Origin: Methanoregula sp.
GTDB taxonomy: Archaea > Halobacteriota > Methanomicrobia > Methanomicrobiales > Methanospirillaceae
Assembly: GCA_030651815.1 (NCBI GenBank)
Contig: JAUSBW010000149.1
Span: 1-45,345, forward strand
Reading direction: 5' to 3'
DNA: 45,345 nucleotides
Shown here piece after piece: positions 1,767 through 13,132 of the stretch. Within the stretch, counting starts at the first letter, position 1. Every line of letters begins with the position of its first letter. The notes beneath the pieces are model-generated. The model was given only the letters and a program-made list of their open reading frames with translations. It was not told the DNA's origin and did no database searches. The translations under genes and the position numbers were made by a program.

Positions 1767-2195
1767 CCTCAATCTGCCGGAACAACATCGTCCTCTCTTT
1801 GTTCGAGCCTCGCATCCAGCAGTTTCCTGTTCAGTTCAGGCCTCCGGCTGACCGATACTTCTTCGCTTATTGTGTCGTATGGTATCATCGGCGCCGGTAT
1901 TGCATTTGCCCTGCAGGATGTGTTCAGGAATTTTGTCGGGGGCTTTTTAATCATGCTCTCCAGTATGTACCGGGTCGGCGACAGGATCTCCATTGACAAC
2001 AACTACGAAGACGTCATGGACACCGGTGTCATGAGCACGACGCTGATGGAAATACGGGGCCGGGTTTCCGGGGACCAGCCATCAGGGCGACTGTTCAGCA
2101 TACCAGACGGCCTTATGATCAATCACCTTTTGTACAATTACACCCGCGACCATTCGTTTATCCGGGACGAGCTATCCATTTCCCCTGACCAATAA
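1767..2195 (+). pseudogene. MscS mechanosensitive-channel remnant, truncated at both ends
   Basis: The open frame begins after a TAG at 1764-1766 and has no ATG. The recognisable part starts near 1851 and contains the pore-lining helix and the start of the beta domain of MscS channels (GIIGAGIAFALQDVFRNFVGG, then YRVGDRISI). The N-terminal transmembrane helices are missing, and the frame stops just after a motif resembling IPN-x-NYTRD, so the C-terminal alpha/beta cage is missing too. A GTG at 1872 could only start a protein inside the pore helix. An intact MscS gene lies 1.2 kb downstream, so this is best read as a decayed extra copy. A short expressed channel fragment cannot be excluded. 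Confidence 0.75.
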
Positions 2196-2322
2196 CAGCA
2201 ACTGACAACAGATCTCATCCTCCGCATAGAGATAAATTTTTTAAAATCCCCGTCACTATCAACACTGGATTTTGCATACCCTTTAATAATCTCCCGTATA
2301 TCTCACTAACAGGAGACCTGGA

Positions 2323-3366
2323 TTGGATATGGCAGACGGGGAGAAAGCTGCTTTTGCAGGCAATGTCATCGGTATTGAACGGGAAATAAAAGAGATCACC
2401 GATGCCATCGAACGGTCCGGGTCCGGTGCTCCGCCTCACATTGCCATCATTGCAGAACCGATGAGTGGCCGCACGACCATCGTTGACGAGATCCGGCGCA
2501 TCTACAGCGACAGGGTGCACTATCTGCCCCTTAAGTTTGTCATTAACCAGTCCGCCCTCCCGGACTTCTCGTCCCTTCCAGGTGATATCATCCTGATCGA
2601 GAACTGCCAGTTCCTTACAACAAGAGTTATCGGGGGATTTGATGTCCTTGATACGTTCCTGCACATGCAGATCACGTCAAAAAAGATCTTCATCACGACA
2701 TGGAACACCTATAGCTGGCATTACCTCTCCTCCGTCATGAACATTGATGCGTATTTCCCCACCATAGTTACCTTAACCAGGATGGATGCACCGCTTCTCA
2801 AGCAGGTGATCCTGTCGCGCTATAAGTCCGGGGAGATCCGGTTTGTTGATGGGGGGGCAGACGAGCGAGCGATGTTTTTCTCCGTGATCCACCAGTCGGT
2901 GCGCCTGCCGTTTACTGCAACCGAAATTTCAGTCCCGTGGATAAAGCTTAATTTTATCCTGATACTTCACGGGCTGCCCCGGAAAAAACGCGTCCAGATC
3001 TCCATAGAGGATGTAATTTTTGAAAAGATCAACCGGATAGCCAGGGGAAATCCAGGTGTCGCGATCCTGCTGTGGAATGCGAGCCTGAAGGATAATGCAA
3101 TATCATTAAGTGCAATCACCGTATCTTCGTATTCCATCTCCCTTGACCCGGATGAATCATTCATTCTTTCCGTCATCCTGTCCATGGAATCGCTGCATGC
3201 AAAGGATCTTTCCGCAATAGCCGGATCCGAGATGGATATCGAACGGGTGCTCTACCGCCTCATCCAGCAGGGTCTTGTCCGGGACGATACAGGCTATTAC
3301 AGTATCATGCCCTTTGCCCTTGGTCCGGTGACTGAATATCTTAAGAAAACACGGAGGTTGTGGTGA
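2323..3366 (+). CDS. P-loop (STAND/AAA-like) protein coupled to MscS, degenerate Walker motifs
   Basis: This is a 347-residue protein. Near residue 44 it has a P-loop-like A-x4-G-R-T-T in which the usual lysine is arginine. Near residue 88 a hydrophobic beta strand (DIILIEN) stands at the Walker B position with E-N instead of D-E. The C-terminal ~80 residues look like a winged helix. This is the layout of small STAND/ORC-like ATPases, but both nucleotide-binding motifs are altered, so binding without hydrolysis is possible (inference). The start is TTG at 2323, because AGGAG at 2311-2315 sits 7 bases before it; an in-frame ATG at 2329 is the alternative. Its stop overlaps the start region of the next gene, an MscS channel, so the two are almost certainly co-translated. 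I do not know a characterised homologue. Confidence 0.75.
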   Translation: MDMADGEKAAFAGNVIGIEREIKEITDAIERSGSGAPPHIAIIAEPMSGRTTIVDEIRRIYSDRVHYLPLKFVINQSALPDFSSLPGDIILIENCQFLTTRVIGGFDVLDTFLHMQITSKKIFITTWNTYSWHYLSSVMNIDAYFPTIVTLTRMDAPLLKQVILSRYKSGEIRFVDGGADERAMFFSVIHQSVRLPFTATEISVPWIKLNFILILHGLPRKKRVQISIEDVIFEKINRIARGNPGVAILLWNASLKDNAISLSAITVSSYSISLDPDESFILSVILSMESLHAKDLSAIAGSEMDIERVLYRLIQQGLVRDDTGYYSIMPFALGPVTEYLKKTRRLW

Positions 3367-3368
3367 CC

Positions 3369-4232
3369 ATGGCTGATACCCTGCTCTCCAATGTTACGGC
3401 GGATGTTGCGATGGAACTCCCGATAAAAACCATTGATACAAACCTGATCCTGTACATCGTTTCTATCATCATCATCGCCTATGTTATTTCGTACCTGCTC
3501 AGTTTCATCCTCGTCCATGTCTCGGAGCGGATCGGCTGGTACCGGACATCTGTCACTATGACCATTCCCCTGTTGAAGCTCCTTGTCTACATGGTTGCAC
3601 TCTATTACATTATCATCGCTGTCATCGAACCTTCGCTGACCCAGATGATTGCATTCTCGGGGCTTTTTGGTGCTGCTATCGGGTTTGGGTTAAAAGACCT
3701 CTTTTCCGATATCGTGGGGGGCATCGTGATCATCTTTGAAAAGCCGTACCAGATCGGCGACAAGGTAACAATCGGCGACAAATACGGGGAGGTTAAAGAT
3801 ATCGGCATCCGTTCGACGCGTATCCAGACACCGGCAGATGAACTGGTATCAGTGCCGAACAATACCATCTTCAGCCAGCCGGTAACAAGTGGCAATGCCG
3901 GCGATCTGGCCATGATGATCGTAATCGATCTCTTCATTCACCCGGATTCCGATGCTGACACGGCAATGAAGATCTTAAAAGAGGCGCTTGTTACCTCGAA
4001 GTACGTGATCATCTCAAAAAGGTATCCTTACACAGTCCTCTTCGAGGACTTCCCGTTCTACAAGCGAATCCGTGCAAAGGGATATGTCAACGACCTACGG
4101 CTGGAGTTCGAGTTCAAATCTGAAGTCACCCGGCGATCATGGGCGGAGCTTAAAAAGGCAGGGATCCGGCCACCGTCAATTGTCCCCCCGTCAGCCGATA
4201 TGAGCGGGCAATCTCCGGCAACGATACTGTAA
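3369..4232 (+). CDS. MscS-family mechanosensitive channel
   Basis: This protein of about 287 residues has an outside-facing N-terminus, hydrophobic helices at about 27-50 and 63-85, and a third, Gly/Ala-rich pore helix (FSGLFGAAIGFGLKDLFSD). The MscS beta domain follows (PYQIGDKVTIGDKYGEV, then IRSTRIQT and VSVPNN), and then the alpha/beta C-terminal domain. The length fits small MscS channels, which open under membrane tension and release solutes in osmotic downshock. The upstream ATPase-like gene ends at 3366. GGAGG at 3353-3357 serves ATG 3369 or GTG 3363/3360. The tight coupling suggests that the P-loop protein is a dedicated partner, perhaps a gating or assembly factor (inference). Confidence 0.88.
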   Translation: MADTLLSNVTADVAMELPIKTIDTNLILYIVSIIIIAYVISYLLSFILVHVSERIGWYRTSVTMTIPLLKLLVYMVALYYIIIAVIEPSLTQMIAFSGLFGAAIGFGLKDLFSDIVGGIVIIFEKPYQIGDKVTIGDKYGEVKDIGIRSTRIQTPADELVSVPNNTIFSQPVTSGNAGDLAMMIVIDLFIHPDSDADTAMKILKEALVTSKYVIISKRYPYTVLFEDFPFYKRIRAKGYVNDLRLEFEFKSEVTRRSWAELKKAGIRPPSIVPPSADMSGQSPATIL

Positions 4233-6827: not shown

Positions 6828-7830
6828 GGCGTATTATCTCGATTTTTTCACCACAGTTTGTGCATTGCTGGCCTTCGAGTGCCACAAACCGGCTGGAAAA
6901 TCCCTGTCGCTCGATCAGCATCGCATTGCATTTGGGGCAGTACGTGTTCTCAAAGGGATTACGGGATACATTGCCAAGATATGGGAATCGCAGGCCAAGT
7001 TCTTTTGCCTTCCTGTAGATCTTTTCCAGCATTGCCACAGGTGTAGATCCACGGTCGAGCATCTTGTAATCCGGGTGGAACGCGGAGAAGTGCATCGGAG
7101 TTTCCGGGCCAAGATGTTCTATCACCCAGCGGATCAACCCTTCCTGCTCTTCCATGCTGTCATTGAGACCCGGGATCACCAGTGTGACGGTCTCGACATG
7201 CATTCCGAGCTCGCGGGCGAGCTGTGCTGAGTCGAGCACCGGCTGAAGTTTCGCACCGCAGATCTTTTTGTAAAAATCATCCGAGAATGCCTTGAGATCG
7301 ACACGGAATGCTCCGAGCATCGGTGCGAGCTCGCGGAGAGCTTCTTCTGTTATGTACCCGTTCGTCACATAGATCGTGCCCAGTCCTTTAGCCCGGGCAA
7401 TCGCACCCATATCAAGCGCGTACTCGTGCCATATCGTAGGCTCGTTGTATGTCCACGAGATACTTGCACTCCCGCTCGCAATCGCCCGCTGTACGCCTTC
7501 TGCCGGCTCCAGAAAACGGAGCATTGCACCATCCAGTCCCTGCCGGGAGATATGCCAGTTCTGGCAGTGCTGGCAGTGAAAGTTACAGCCGATAGATCCC
7601 AGCGAGTATGAAAGGGTGCCGGGCAGGTAGTGAAAAAGAGGTTTTTTCTCGATCGGGTCAACCGCTTCAGCGCTGATCTTTGCGTAGGTCATCGCCACAA
7701 GTAAACCATGTTCGTTCACCCGCACTCCGCAGATGCCGTGCTTGCCGTCATTGATCGTGCAGCGGTGACTGCACAGCGAGCACTTCACCGTATTATTCTT
7801 AAGTTTTGCGTACTGGCGTGCCTCGTACAT
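6817..7830 (-). CDS. amrS: AmmeMemoRadiSam-system radical SAM enzyme
   Basis: This 337-residue radical SAM protein carries the CNFHCQHCQN motif near residue 80, which binds the [4Fe-4S] cluster that cleaves S-adenosylmethionine. Before it comes a Cys-rich N-terminus (CSLCSHRC, then GICGVR), and after it the SWTYNEPTIW and YVTNGYI segments typical of AmrS. A C-terminal zinc ribbon (YCPKC and CTNC) follows near residues 290-328. The family is named for its association with AMMECR1 and Memo proteins, but neither is present here; the neighbours are a small zinc-ribbon protein upstream and Mut7-C downstream. Its substrate is unknown in archaea. It was long mislabelled pyruvate-formate-lyase activating enzyme. 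Confidence 0.9.
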   Translation of the reverse strand: MYEARQYAKLKNNTVKCSLCSHRCTINDGKHGICGVRVNEHGLLVAMTYAKISAEAVDPIEKKPLFHYLPGTLSYSLGSIGCNFHCQHCQNWHISRQGLDGAMLRFLEPAEGVQRAIASGSASISWTYNEPTIWHEYALDMGAIARAKGLGTIYVTNGYITEEALRELAPMLGAFRVDLKAFSDDFYKKICGAKLQPVLDSAQLARELGMHVETVTLVIPGLNDSMEEQEGLIRWVIEHLGPETPMHFSAFHPDYKMLDRGSTPVAMLEKIYRKAKELGLRFPYLGNVSRNPFENTYCPKCNAMLIERQGFSSRFVALEGQQCTNCGEKIEIIRHVN

Positions 7831-7851
7831 ATCCTGCCTTCGTAAACGTGA

Positions 7852-8022
7852 TTAGGGATGATCCTTATTCTCTTTTTCGATCTCCCGGAATGCATCTGCA
7901 CCATCGATCTCGAGCACAAACGAGCCGCGGTATCCGCAGTCTTTGCAGAGATATACCTGTCCGACACATCCGCCGGCAACGGGAAATATATCCTGGCTTT
8001 TACAGTTCGGGCAGTAAAACAT
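7852..8022 (-). CDS. Small zinc-ribbon protein
   Basis: The frame can be extended to 8082, but the ATG at 8022 gives a 56-residue protein beginning directly with the metal knuckle MFYCPNC. A second knuckle CKDC lies 20 residues later, so there are four cysteines for one zinc. The C-terminus is acidic and charged (EIEKENKDHP). The gene lies 21 bases before the AmrS-type gene on the same strand and shares a 43-base divergent promoter region with pyrH. Its role is unknown; it may be an RNA- or protein-binding partner in the operon. The longer start is unlikely because it would overlap the pyrH start. Confidence 0.75.
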   Translation of the reverse strand: MFYCPNCKSQDIFPVAGGCVGQVYLCKDCGYRGSFVLEIDGADAFREIEKENKDHP

Positions 8023-8065
8023 AGTAAACAACTCTATATGAGCATCAGGTACAAAAACTAGTGCA

Positions 8066-8770
8066 ATGAGAAATATTGTCATCTCGCTGGGTGGTTCGAT
8101 CCTTATCCCAGAACTCAGCGGGAACAGGATCAGCAGCTATGTCCCGGTACTCAGGGCGATCGCAGAGCACCACCGGCTCTTTGTGGTCGTTGGCGGGGGC
8201 GGTGCAGCACGGGATTATATTGAAGCTGCACGAAAACTCGGTGTGGATGAGGGGACTTCCGATGAGATCGGCATCCTTGTCACCCGGCTCAACGCCACAC
8301 TCCTTATTGCAGCACTGGGTGATGCAGCCTACCCGAAAGTTGCAGAGAGTCATGCGGAGGCAAAGAAGTTTGCAGAATCCAGCAAGATCGTGGTGATGGG
8401 TGGTATTACACCGGGCCAGACGACCGACGCAGTTGCCGCAGTGCTCGCCGAACGCGTAAGGGCGTTGGTTTTTATCAATGCGACCTCGGTAAATGGTATC
8501 TATGACAAAGACCCGAAAAAGCATAAAGATGCGAAGCGGTTTGAGACTCTCACGCCCCAGCAGCTGCTGGGGGTTGTCAGCCAGATCGGTCTTGGCGCCG
8601 GATCCAACAATGTGCTTGACATCATCGCCGCCCGGATAGTCGAGCGCAGTCATATCCCTCTGGTTGTACTGGATGGAACAGAGCCGGAAAACCTGCAAAA
8701 CGCCATCCTCAAAGGCACATTCACCGGCACCATTGTGTCTGAATCCAATAAAAATCCCCTGCCGGTCTGA
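8066..8770 (+). CDS. pyrH: Archaeal-type UMP kinase
   Basis: This 234-residue amino-acid-kinase-family enzyme converts UMP to UDP with ATP in the cytoplasm. The N-terminal ISLGGSIL and the VVGGGGAARDYI segment build the nucleotide-binding fold. The GGITPGQTTDAVAAVLAE segment near residue 112 is the archaeal UMP-kinase signature, and NGIYDKDPKK near residue 148 is the ATP-site loop. The length is typical. I considered isopentenyl phosphate kinase, a relative found in archaea, but the TPGQTTD signature favours PyrH. It is transcribed divergently from the zinc-ribbon operon. A TATA-like CTATATGA at 8033-8040 lies about 26 bases before the ATG, so the message is probably leaderless or nearly so. 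Confidence 0.9.
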   Translation: MRNIVISLGGSILIPELSGNRISSYVPVLRAIAEHHRLFVVVGGGGAARDYIEAARKLGVDEGTSDEIGILVTRLNATLLIAALGDAAYPKVAESHAEAKKFAESSKIVVMGGITPGQTTDAVAAVLAERVRALVFINATSVNGIYDKDPKKHKDAKRFETLTPQQLLGVVSQIGLGAGSNNVLDIIAARIVERSHIPLVVLDGTEPENLQNAILKGTFTGTIVSESNKNPLPV

Positions 8771-8822
8771 CCCTTAAAGACCATTACCTATTTTTATCAT
8801 CCCGTCGCATCTATGATGGCGC

Positions 8823-8897
8823 GGGGTAGTAGGGTAGCCTGGTCCATCCTAGAGCGTTTGGGACGCTTTGACGGCGGTTCGAATCCGCCCTACCCCA
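8823..8897 (+). tRNA. tRNA-Pro (anticodon TGG)
   Basis: The acceptor stem GGGGTAG pairs perfectly with CTACCCC, and the discriminator is A at 8897. The anticodon arm is GAGCG-TTTGGGA-CGCTT, which gives TGG (Pro) with a G-U closing pair. The T-arm is GGCGG-TTCGAAT-CCGCC. No CCA is encoded and no intron is seen. An A/T-rich box (TATTTTTAT, around 8789-8797) sits about 30 bases upstream as the likely promoter. Confidence 0.95.
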
Positions 8898-9566: not shown

Positions 9567-10598
9567 TCATGATCCGACAATGAGCCGGATTACCATAAAT
9601 GAGATAAAACCGATCAGGGCGCTGATGGGGATTGTCATGATCCATGCAAGAGCGATGCTCCGTGCAATACCCCATTTTACGGTACTTGCGCCCATGGTGG
9701 TACCCACGCCCATGATCGATGTGCAGATTATGTGCGTAGTGCTCACCGGAATACCAGCAATAGAAGCCCCTATGATGGTTGCCGCTCCGGCAGTTTCTGC
9801 AGCAAACCCATGCACAGGGCGCAGCTTGGTGATCTTGTAGCCCATTGTTTTTACAATCCGCCATCCTCCAAAGAGTGTCCCGAGTGCGATGGCGGTATGG
9901 GCAATAAGGATCACCCATAAGGGAACCGGCAGGTGGTTTGGGTCAACAGCAGATCCGAAATATCCGATTGAGAAGAGCAGCGGAACTATGATACCCATCG
10001 TTTTCTGGGCATCGTTTGTTCCGTGACTGAAACTATAGGCTGCCGCTGAGCAGAGCTGGAGCCGTTTGAAATGGGTTTCTGCAGTTGATTTATGGGCATT
10101 TTTGGTAAGATTGAGCACGATTGCCATAAATAAAAAACCAATTGCAAAACCAATAAGAGGGGACAGGATCATAAATATCGCTACCAGCTCAACCGTGGAC
10201 CACTTGATCGCCGCCAGTCATGCTGCCGATATACCGGCTCCTGCCATCCCCCCGATAAGGGCATGGGAAGATGATGTGGGCAGGCCAAAAAACCAGGTGA
10301 TTATGTTCCATACGATTGCACCGGTGAGTGCAGCGAGAATGATATAGGGGACCATAGCGGTCTCGACAACCTCCAGTTGAATGATTTTGGCGATCGTACT
10401 CGCAACCGCAACCCCAAACCCGAATGCAGCAATAAAATTAAAAAATGCGGCAAAGGCCACCGCATTTTTCGGGGAGATTACTTTTGTCGAGACATCCGTT
10501 GAGATTGAGTTTGCCGAATCGTGAAACCCGTTAGTGAAATCAAAGATCAGCGCAATGACGATGATGGCAATAATCAGGATAAACGGTGCCTCTATCAT
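9567..10598 (-). pseudogene. pit: Pit-type phosphate permease interrupted by an in-frame TGA
   Basis: Two same-frame pieces make one inorganic phosphate transporter of the PiT family. The first (10598 down to 10221) has the N-terminal signature DFTNGFHDSANSIST and the LPTSSSHALIGG repeat motif. The second runs to 9567 and carries SFSHGTNDAQKTMG and GIPVSTTHIICTSIMGVG. Between them is a TGA at 10218-10220, after which the frame continues with 15 codons that read like the expected inter-helix loop before the next ATG (10172). The join is in frame, so this is a single nonsense change (GGA to TGA would restore a glycine), not a frameshift. Full length would be 343 residues. It could be a new pseudogene, a read-through gene or a base-call error. 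Its ribosome site is GGAG, and an intact paralogue lies just upstream. Confidence 0.85.
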
Positions 10599-10626
10599 GC
10601 AGACTCCTTACGTGTGATTCTGCCCC

Positions 10627-11256
10627 TCACGAGTGTCGGATAGCGATATCGGACAGCACGTTTGCAACATCTTCACAGTTGTCAGTCGCAATTTCAAGAT
10701 GTTCGTAGATATCTTTGAGTTTGATGATCGTAATAGCATCTGTTGTCTTAAAGAGGTCGGTCACCGCATGAGCAAGCACATCATCAGCAAGATTTTCGAG
10801 CCTGTTTACCTCAATGCAGCGTTCTTCGATATACCGGGGATCTTTGATTGAACGGATGGCTTTTACCGCACTTTCGATCTCTACACTGGACATATGGATC
10901 AGTTTTGCCAGTTCGATCATGTGGGAGTCCGTGGATTCAATATTATAATAGTACATCTTCTCGGTTGCACCATCGATATAGTCCAGTACTTCATCAAGGG
11001 ATGATGCAAGTTTTGAGATCTCTTCGGGATCGATCGGAGTAATAAACGTGCTGTTCAGCTGCTGGTAGATATCATGGGTGATCAGGTCTCCCTTGTGTTC
11101 AAGCAGTTCGATTGCGTGACGCTTATGCTTGACATCGGTAAAATCCTCGGTCAGGGCAACGAGCAGCCAGGCGGCCTCCGTTATAACCTCTGCCTGCTTT
11201 TCAAACAGGTCGAAAAATATCTTATCCTTTGGTATCAACAATTCACGAATACCCAT
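10627..11256 (-). CDS. DUF47 (PhoU-like) protein paired with Pit
   Basis: This is a 209-residue all-helical PhoU-like protein. It opens with RELLIPKDKIFFDLFEKQ, the family's typical start, and has an EHKGDLITHDIYQQLN segment near residue 52 and an IKLKDIYEHLEIATDNCEDVANVL segment near the C-terminus. Both match the repeated E-x3-D and D-x6-D metal-binding motifs of PhoU folds. DUF47 proteins are nearly always encoded beside Pit transporters and are thought to regulate phosphate uptake. Here it lies 28 bases before the Pit gene that carries the stop codon. It is a paralogue of the protein at 12503-13132, with the same length and layout. Confidence 0.9.
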   Translation of the reverse strand: MGIRELLIPKDKIFFDLFEKQAEVITEAAWLLVALTEDFTDVKHKRHAIELLEHKGDLITHDIYQQLNSTFITPIDPEEISKLASSLDEVLDYIDGATEKMYYYNIESTDSHMIELAKLIHMSSVEIESAVKAIRSIKDPRYIEERCIEVNRLENLADDVLAHAVTDLFKTTDAITIIKLKDIYEHLEIATDNCEDVANVLSDIAIRHS

Positions 11257-11315
11257 AACAAACCTACTGGTAATCGGTGAAGGATCTTAAAAAATATAGC
11301 GAAATTGTGCGGGCA

Positions 11316-12506
11316 CTATACCATAGTCAGTACGAAGCTGACAAGCATGTATCCGGCCCATGACACTGCCAGAGCGAGCGGGATGGTGATTATCCATGCC
11401 GTCATCATCTCACGCACAACCTTCCACTGCACAGCGTTCCTGCCCCTTGTTGTCCCCACGCCGATTATCGCGCCATTGATCGTTTGGGTGGAGGAGACGG
11501 GTATGCCCTGCCGGGTGACCATTACAAGAATTGCACTGCTCACAGTTGCAGCACAGAATCCCTGGTACGGTCGGATCTTGGTGATCTCTTTTGCCATTTT
11601 ATCAACTACCTGCCACCCGCCAAAACAGGTGCCCAGACCGATTGCAACTGCTGATGCAAGAATTACCCACACAGGCACTTCAAAGGTTACGAGAAATCCG
11701 GATGAGACAAGCAGTGCGGTAATCACACCCACAGCGTGCTGTCCATCGTTCGCGCCATGGGCGGTTGCCTGTCCGAGACATGCGAGCACATGCAGGGGCT
11801 GGAAGATGTGTTTTGCCCTGTTTTGCCGTGAGTGTTTGATCATCTGTGAAACAAGGATATTAAAGAGGAATGCGCCCGCCATGCCAAGGAGCGGTGAGAT
11901 GAAGATGAAGAGCACGATCGCAAAGAGGCCGTGGATCTGTATTACACCGGCAATCATCAGGATCGGGATGATTATTCCCGCTCCGCAAACACTTCCCAGC
12001 AGGACTCCATACCTGATATCTCCCTCAAACGCTGCACAGATGATGGCAAGTACAAGGGCCCCGGGAATCGCACCCATGATCGCGTAGGAAAAAACCTGAA
12101 ACACGGTGTCTGCACCGGGAAGGATAACTGCGGAAAAGCCAATCGCCCCTATCCCTGCTCCCAGTAACCCTCCCACCAGGGCATGACTGCTGGAGAGCGG
12201 AATTCCCATACGGGTAGCAACAAAGACCAAAACGATCGATGCACCCATAGCTACGACAATTGATAGTGGGGTGAGTGCACCCTGGGTAACGATAGCGGTA
12301 CCAATTGTTGCTGCAACAGCCGTAGAAAAGATAAACGGCCCGATCATGTTGCAGATGGCAGTAGAGAACACTGCCTTGATGGGCGAGAGCGCTTTTGTAG
12401 CAACTACCGTTGCAATCGAGTGCGAGGCATCATTGAGGCCGTTTACAAAGTTTAAGGCAAGCGCAAGGATGATGCCAAACAGAATGATTGGTTCCATGCC
12501 AATCAT
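11316..12506 (-). CDS. pit: Pit-family inorganic phosphate transporter (intact)
   Basis: This 396-residue membrane protein has about ten hydrophobic helices and both PiT signature repeats: FVNGLNDASHSIATVVAT near the N-terminus with IPLSSSHALVGG, and ATAHGANDGQHAVG with GIPVSSTQTINGAIIG in the second half. A long loop of basic residues near the middle (KHSRQNRAKHIFQP) is probably cytoplasmic. Pit transporters take up phosphate with a cation, usually H+ or Na+. Its start ATGA overlaps the stop of the DUF47 gene at 12503, so the two are translationally coupled. It is about 50 residues longer than its interrupted paralogue downstream. Confidence 0.93.
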   Translation of the reverse strand: MIGMEPIILFGIILALALNFVNGLNDASHSIATVVATKALSPIKAVFSTAICNMIGPFIFSTAVAATIGTAIVTQGALTPLSIVVAMGASIVLVFVATRMGIPLSSSHALVGGLLGAGIGAIGFSAVILPGADTVFQVFSYAIMGAIPGALVLAIICAAFEGDIRYGVLLGSVCGAGIIIPILMIAGVIQIHGLFAIVLFIFISPLLGMAGAFLFNILVSQMIKHSRQNRAKHIFQPLHVLACLGQATAHGANDGQHAVGVITALLVSSGFLVTFEVPVWVILASAVAIGLGTCFGGWQVVDKMAKEITKIRPYQGFCAATVSSAILVMVTRQGIPVSSTQTINGAIIGVGTTRGRNAVQWKVVREMMTAWIITIPLALAVSWAGYMLVSFVLTMV

Positions 12507-13132
12507 GCATGGCTCATCACGATGTCATTGAGTGCGTGCCCGACATCATTGCACTTCTCCATCACCCGGCCGAGCCCCTCGTAGATATCCTTGAGCTTGA
12601 TTATCAGCAGCAGATCCTTTGTCTTGAACAGATCGAGCACTGCCTTTGCCTGCAGTTCTATGGAGATGTTGTATAACCGGTTGATCTCGCTTGCATGGCT
12701 CTTTACCTCATCAGGCTTTTTTAAGCTTTCAAGAGCAGTAACTGCTTCTACAATCTCTGAGGCAGACATCATGATCAGGTAGGAAAATTCCTTTAATGTC
12801 TCATTACTCTCGTTAAGCTCGTAGTTGCAGATCTGCTGGGTGACCCGGTCAATGCGGTCCATGACATCGTCCAGGACCGGAGCAAGCCGGGAGATCTCCT
12901 CCGGCTCGAGCGGTGTGATCAGTGATTCGTTCAGCTGTTCGTACACACTACGGGTGATCTCGTCACATTTATGCTCAAACTGGCGCACCTTGTGAGATTT
13001 TTCCGTGCCATTCGGAAGTTCGTGGGTGATCTCGTTTAATGTAGTGGAGGCTTCTGAAATCATTTCGGCCATCTCTTTAAAAAGAGTAAAAAAGATCTTG
13101 TCTTTTGGGAGGATCAGATCACGGATACGCAT
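12503..13132 (-). CDS. DUF47 (PhoU-like) protein, first gene of the phosphate cluster
   Basis: This 209-residue helical PhoU-like protein has the same frame of motifs as its paralogue at 10627-11256: an RDLILPKDKIFF start, FEHKCDEITRSVYEQLN near residue 50, and a C-terminal IKLKDIYEGLGRVMEKCNDVGHAL. The coding strands have diverged enough that the duplication is old. It is the promoter-proximal gene of the leftward phosphate cluster. A TATA-like TTTATACTT (minus strand, about 13163-13171) lies some 30 bases before the ATG. The role is inferred from the constant pairing of this family with Pit transporters. Confidence 0.9.
   Translation of the reverse strand: MRIRDLILPKDKIFFTLFKEMAEMISEASTTLNEITHELPNGTEKSHKVRQFEHKCDEITRSVYEQLNESLITPLEPEEISRLAPVLDDVMDRIDRVTQQICNYELNESNETLKEFSYLIMMSASEIVEAVTALESLKKPDEVKSHASEINRLYNISIELQAKAVLDLFKTKDLLLIIKLKDIYEGLGRVMEKCNDVGHALNDIVMSHA

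Follow-up and report, generated by a model that had tools for sequence, protein, structure and literature searches.

The window analysed here, a stretch of 45,345 nucleotides of Methanoregula sp. (contig JAUSBW010000149.1), contains two adjoining genes of a pair that a public record labels only as "hypothetical protein" and "mechanosensitive ion channel family protein". MscS channels are tension-gated valves, and the question raised by this locus is why the gene of such a channel directly follows that of an ATPase-like protein in which both Walker motifs are altered, and what the upstream protein, hereafter the partner or P, does for the channel.

Both open reading frames lie where the earlier note on this DNA had placed them. 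P has 347 residues when read from TTG 2323 and 345 residues from the conserved alternative start ATG 2329, and the alignment shows that its relatives mostly begin at the codon corresponding to ATG 2329. The longest reading of the MscS frame is 290 residues from GTG 3360, and every sequence in the MscS alignment shares the methionine at 3369. The two genes overlap by 7 bases when GTG 3360 is used and are separated by a gap of 2 bases when ATG 3369 is used. The overlap described in the earlier note therefore hinges on the choice of start, whereas the tight coupling stands regardless of it; because the GGAGG element listed in Table 1 sits inside the end of the P gene, the translation of P and MscS is probably coupled whichever start is used. 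The same pair is found on a haloarchaeal plasmid, where the genes overlap by 4 bases. A chance reading frame or an artefact is excluded by the homologues in 72 genomes and by the dN/dS of the P gene, which is 0.12–0.27.

Table 1. Features of the P–MscS locus, in positions of the window.
Feature	Position	Strand	Basis
Truncated ordinary MscS remnant, upstream of the pair	1872..2195	+	PF00924, E = 1e-9; frame of 107-142 aa
STAND/AAA+-like putative pseudo-ATPase gene (partner, P)	2323..3366	+	ORF; homologues in 72 genomes; AlphaFold2 model; Foldseek
Walker A position, AEPMSGRT (Arg for Lys, first Gly replaced by Ala)	2452..2475	+	Sequence, alignment
Walker B position, IILIEN followed by C (Glu-Asn where the canonical pair is D-E)	2587..2604	+	Sequence, alignment
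R-x-I-G-G-F loop past Walker B, family signature, G105 invariant	2623..2640	+	Two alignments
TTWN..W.YL motif, sensor-1 strand (STAND TTR position)	2695..2727	+	Alignments; model
GNPGVA motif, GxP/GLPL-like, STAND helical domain	3046..3063	+	Alignments; helix 244-254 in model
Predicted C-terminal winged-helix domain, ending in a conserved R-x-x-W	3148..3363	+	Secondary structure of model; Cdc6/RuvB matches spanning the winged helix
GGAGG, putative ribosome-binding-like site for MscS, within the end of the P gene	3353..3357	+	Sequence
MscS-family channel gene, paired clade	3360..4232	+	PF00924, E = 1e-21; model; Foldseek
Pore-helix signature GFGLKD, paired clade only (AxAxQD in other archaeal MscS)	3681..3698	+	Comparison with 43 unpaired MscS

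The constancy of the pair was determined in two samples, one consisting of 121 genomes (the source genome and 120 near relatives drawn) and one of 393 genomes spread over Halobacteriota, in which P was sought with a profile. P was found in 32 of the 121 genomes, and the profile matched in 71 of the 393. Removal of four weak AAA+ matches (G002, G017, G291 and G299), a fragment in G294 and a broken gene in G357 leaves 65 genomes, which together with 7 more from the smaller sample give 72 Halobacteriota genomes with a usable P. P is paired with a downstream MscS gene in all 72, mostly in direct adjacency; at every locus with enough DNA, P is followed by an MscS gene of its own orientation, with the exceptions given below. 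In the reverse direction, the profile of the paired MscS at 1e-60 returned exactly the 65 genomes carrying P among the 393, so that no MscS of the paired clade was found without P at this threshold. Scores in the paired clade ran from 295 to 485 bits, 296 being the minimum in the phylum-wide search, and unpaired MscS reached at most 110 bits; a looser search of 25 genomes gave 15 paired MscS at 306–485 bits and all other MscS at or below 110, which leaves the gap between 110 and 295 bits empty in these genomes.

The exceptions can be explained individually. The four P matches with no MscS (G002, G017, G291 and G299) proved to be AAA+ proteins of other kinds, with E values of 1e-3 to 1e-5, and P stands apart from MscS only apparently in G086, G419 and G439, where contig ends intervene; the paired MscS of G086 starts contig C3. 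Decayed copies occur in G357, where both genes are broken, in G294, where P is reduced to a fragment of 65 residues and the paired-clade MscS is missing, and in G405 and G347, where a frameshifted P adjoins an intact MscS. A single internal TAA was also observed in the otherwise intact P of G380 (L109, 2454–3494), which is likewise adjoined by an intact MscS. The broken P genes of G405, G347 and G380 may mean that the partner is dispensable there, or they may be sequencing errors. At locus L036, P and MscS are separated by one inserted IS-like gene; this reading frame (7748–8896) resembles, by eye, a transposase of the IS605/TnpB type and is the sole insertion seen in the pair. In the genomes searched, neither gene was thus found without the other except as decayed copies. 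Homologues of P without MscS neighbours, which the earlier note had named as the observation that would count against its pairing, were thus not found, and the pairing holds in 72 of the 72 usable genomes. A natural fusion of P and MscS was not seen.

The Pfam match of the window's P is weak (AAA_16, E = 1e-4, below the cut-off), the cut-off of nSTAND3 was not reached, and a search of the PDB sequences with the P profile gave no significant match. Five of 29 members of the P family match Pfam nSTAND3 (PF20720), where only L026 passes (29.7 against 27.2 bits); the window's P and most family members have no match. The AlphaFold2 model, built with 66 relatives, has a pLDDT of 88.5 and a pTM of 0.84, and predicts a nucleotide-binding domain, a helical lid and a winged-helix domain in this order. 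The best PDB neighbours of the model in Foldseek are Cdc6, RuvB, Orc and the cores of plant NLR proteins. The STAND/AAA-like identity proposed from the sequence was therefore borne out by the predicted three-domain fold and its structural matches, and on the strength of the model P is assigned to an uncharacterised STAND/AAA+ family.

The conserved motifs of P can be read by analogy with this class, in which many proteins carry TTR at the sensor-1 strand and a GxP/GLPL motif in the helical domain. In the model, a strand (122–128) followed by a helix (129–139) forms at the TTWN motif, where W132 is invariant and W127 and N128 are conserved in at least 90% of the sequences. By this analogy TTWN would stand where many STAND proteins have TTR, and GNPGVA in the lid would correspond to the GxP/GLPL motif. 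P thus has the same domain order as winged-helix STAND/AAA+ proteins (Cdc6/Orc1, RuvB, the NLR core and the P. abyssi ATPase PAB2304, 2qen), and its GNPGVA resembles their GxP/GLPL motif. However, it differs from them in its degraded Walker motifs, in the RxIGGF and TWN..W.YL signatures, and in an extra hairpin at about residues 185–210, which is less confident in the model and looks peculiar to the family. It also has neither an effector domain nor a recognition domain (no TPR, WD40 or LRR); the effector would be supplied in trans. Two distant relatives of P (L158, 4343–5413, and L159, 3889–4959) were also observed, which are solitary AAA+ proteins with a winged helix and a canonical Walker A loop; no MscS adjoins them within the DNA examined.

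The earlier note had described Arg for Lys in the P-loop (SGRTT) and Glu-Asn in place of the D-E pair of Walker B. Both substitutions were read again in the window's P, where the first Gly of Walker A is also replaced by Ala; AEPMSGRTT departs from the consensus GxxxxGK[ST] and ILIEN from hhhhD[DE]. Among 66 sequences, the position of the Walker A Lys is occupied by R in 30, K in 26, Q in 3, E in 2 and other residues in 5. The first acid of Walker B is D in 48 and E in 11; the second position is N in 38, D in 12, G in 9, H in 3, and R and E in 2 each, so that an acid (E or D) stands there in 14 of the 66. Canonical motifs in most species, which the earlier note had named as a second observation against its reading, thus gave a split result: 26 of the 66 sequences retain the Walker A Lys, but the D-E pair of Walker B is nearly absent (Glu in 2 of 66).

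The state of the Walker A Lys follows lineages. It is kept in family f8 (18 of 18 rows), in f14, f30 and f36, and partly in f6 (3 of 7 members), and is absent from f1, the window's family (0 of 18 rows), and from f2, f4, f10, f22 and f23; the tree requires at least four changes of state. These alignments indicate that the substitutions are lineage-wide and no peculiarity of the window's gene. Because loops of the GSGKTT type occur in the distant, unpaired relatives of G291 and G299, the history is likely one of loss from a nucleotide-binding ancestor. Judged by their motifs, lineages with GKTT and an Asp in Walker B should still bind nucleotide, and those with no recognisable P-loop (SRVEHI, AGDYLI, AGIAPL) probably bind none. 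The description "nucleotide-sensing but non-hydrolysing" is therefore not supported for the family as one state, as its motifs range from GKTT to no P-loop.

The channel, in turn, belongs clearly to the MscS superfamily. It matches Pfam MS_channel_2nd (PF00924), which covers the pore helix and upper vestibule, with 77 bits against a cut-off of 20.2, and its model contains three membrane helices (27–58, 62–89 and 93–110/112–127), of which the pore helix is kinked, followed by beta and alpha/beta domains. The best Foldseek match of the model is the open MscS structure 7onj (E = 4.5e-16), and the nearest sequences are the pore modules of MscM and MscK and small MscS proteins. It thus shares the three helices, the kinked pore helix and the cytoplasmic domains with E. 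coli MscS, MscK, MscM/YjeP and YnaI. In contrast to these, sequence comparison places the paired channel in a discrete clade marked by GFGLKD and by a separate signature in the cytoplasmic part, and wherever this clade was found, P or a remnant of P was found as well. G110 is present in 98% and K112 in 92% of the paired clade, and neither in any of the 43 unpaired archaeal MscS. The conserved lysine at the hinge of the pore helix is a notable feature in itself. The conserved residues private to the clade concentrate in two places, the pore helix and the alpha/beta domain of the cytoplasmic part. Among the cytoplasmic ones are S177, N179, G181, M185, S213 and F250, and a docking surface would be expected to show such a pattern.

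The two genes have also evolved together. The tree distances of P and MscS are correlated with r = 0.81, to which shared organismal descent contributes in part; none of 500 permutations was as high, and none exceeded 0.26. Purifying selection acts on both genes, and the dN/dS of the channel (0.08–0.21) is lower than that of P in each comparison made. The P tree tracks archaeal families, with 12 label changes compared to 40.6 expected from shuffles, and contains one clear transfer, in which genus g29 of f6 lies within the f1 group; these trees indicate that the pair is mostly inherited vertically. Relatives of the pair on viral contigs were searched for and none was found. A mobile or defence element was rejected on the basis of this result, the mostly vertical trees and the single haloarchaeal plasmid copy, which carries the same pair.

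At 20 of 61 loci, in 10 of 33 genera, ordinary MscS genes are found no more than 6 kb from the pair, in several arrangements. About 25 such genes were counted in the 0.63 Mb searched, compared to about 0.8 expected from the density of unpaired MscS (93 in about 70 Mb, or 1.3 per Mb); kinship was gauged by the count of genera. Kup K+ transporters occur near the pair in two arrangements (L034 and L044–L046), and a Na+/H+ exchanger in L044–L046. Besides the MscS paralogues there is no conserved third gene, the largest other neighbour clusters comprising 7–8 loci of large families. Because of the clustering of MscS genes and the nearby Kup and Na+/H+ exchanger genes, the surroundings speak for a role in osmotic or ion homeostasis rather than in defence.

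Several further observations concern the surroundings. The MscS remnant upstream of the window's pair lacks the first helices and the C-terminal domain, and an intact MscS stands in its place in L043, L050 and L118, which gives an array of MscS, pseudo-ATPase and MscS. In L082 (6000–11000; G278, contig C24), a paired MscS and three ordinary ones form a cluster of four genes within about 6 kb. Elsewhere in the window, the pair of a PHO4 phosphate transporter and PhoU_div is duplicated in tandem at 10218–13132, where one PHO4 is truncated to 126 residues, and a short HEAT-repeat protein of 126 residues is encoded at 597–977.

Four rival explanations were ranked in the order of autoregulator, assembly factor, defence and toxin–antitoxin-like pair. 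An AAA+ protein with a winged helix can also bind DNA, which counts against reading P as a channel subunit, and P might thus be a DNA-binding regulator of its own operon and of the MscS genes nearby that does not touch the channel itself. The Cdc6/RuvB-like predicted fold with its winged helix, the position of P as the first gene of the operon and the frequent proximity of further MscS genes fit this explanation. It is nevertheless unlikely, since the rates of P and the channel are correlated and the two genes are never separated, which is unusual for a regulator needing only DNA, and since the clade-specific cytoplasmic residues of the channel are unexpected under purely transcriptional control. 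Moreover, the winged helix of STAND proteins normally serves as an intramolecular lock, as in NLR proteins and Apaf-1. P could instead be an assembly factor or scaffold that helps a divergent MscS to fold, insert or oligomerise and has no role in gating, which would agree with the probable translational coupling behind a first gene and with the loss of nucleotide motifs in many lineages. However, MscS homologues assemble unaided, and intact MscS genes stand beside a broken P in G405 and G347, so that this explanation, next in the ranking, also appears doubtful.

A role in defence, which the earlier note had offered as an option, would make P a STAND sensor and the pore an effector that depolarises the infected cell. 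STAND proteins are common immune sensors, some of whose effectors are membrane proteins, and the presence of P is patchy (71 of 393 genomes). Yet P has no recognition domain, there are no recurrent defence neighbours and no relatives on viral contigs, the trees agree with the archaeal families except for about one clear transfer, and the pair sits among osmotic channels. PADLOC gave no match for P or MscS and only marginal scores in relatives. With no support from the neighbours, PADLOC or the mode of inheritance, this option is improbable. Least probable of all, and only slightly credible, is a toxin–antitoxin-like arrangement, in which a leaky channel is neutralised by the P encoded upstream; the two-gene unit with the regulator first and a near-overlap, and the apparent co-loss in G294 and G357, are what it would predict, but the broken P beside an intact MscS in G405 and G347 and the vertical inheritance argue against it.

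The explanation considered moderately probable is that P, derived from a STAND-type nucleotide switch, is a dedicated regulatory subunit by which a specialised MscS channel is gated or held. The obligate unit of P and MscS suggests that the channel has its own soluble regulator built in, and the earlier note's general idea that P controls the channel is supported as an idea. The two genes would then form one functional unit of a divergent MscS-type channel and a cytoplasmic subunit, whose ancestry would lie in a switch with an AAA+ nucleotide-binding domain, a helical domain and a winged helix. P would most likely dock on the channel's cytoplasmic cage, where it may set the opening threshold or hold the channel closed or open, as KefF does on KefC. 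In lineages of the Methanosarcinaceae type, where the P-loop appears still usable, ATP/ADP or another ligand may set the state of the switch. In most Methanomicrobiales, including the source genome, the Walker A Lys is replaced, and P probably works by binding alone with no ATP cycle.

Known systems offer partial parallels. The gene of the ancillary subunit KefF lies 5' of the efflux gene with an overlap of a few bases, and KefF binds the cytosolic domain of KefC and is needed for its full activity (PMC10224563). The P–MscS pair resembles KefF/KefC and KefG/KefB in the position of the soluble-subunit gene 5' of the efflux gene and in the tight coupling. KefF is a quinone reductase whereas P is STAND-like, and KefC, unlike MscS, is an antiporter that carries a KTN domain; some Kef systems have no subunit, whereas the P–MscS pairing has no clean exception. 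In bCNG channels, according to titles cited in PMC4560390, a pore of the MscS family is under the control of a soluble nucleotide-binding module. In contrast, the regulator here would be a separate protein with degraded nucleotide motifs. The cyclic-nucleotide module of bCNG channels is fused to the pore and has a fold other than that of P. The literature searched, outside subscription journals, contained nothing relevant on the P–MscS pair, on STAND proteins with MscS, on accessory proteins of archaeal MscS or on MscS in defence. The parts of the system are of known kinds, and the obligate union of a STAND-like P with MscS is new relative to that literature.

If P gates the pore, the pair would be a case of a switch module controlling a channel in trans. 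Tentatively, a separate STAND switch could, besides tension, open a ligand- or nucleotide-controlled MscS, and this switch, at first ATP-binding, could have become independent of ATP repeatedly across archaea. Since the Walker motifs of the family range naturally from intact to erased, the need for nucleotide is directly testable. For a gene pair that includes a hypothetical protein, the analysis also proposes a likely function, in methanogens whose osmotic adaptation is poorly understood.
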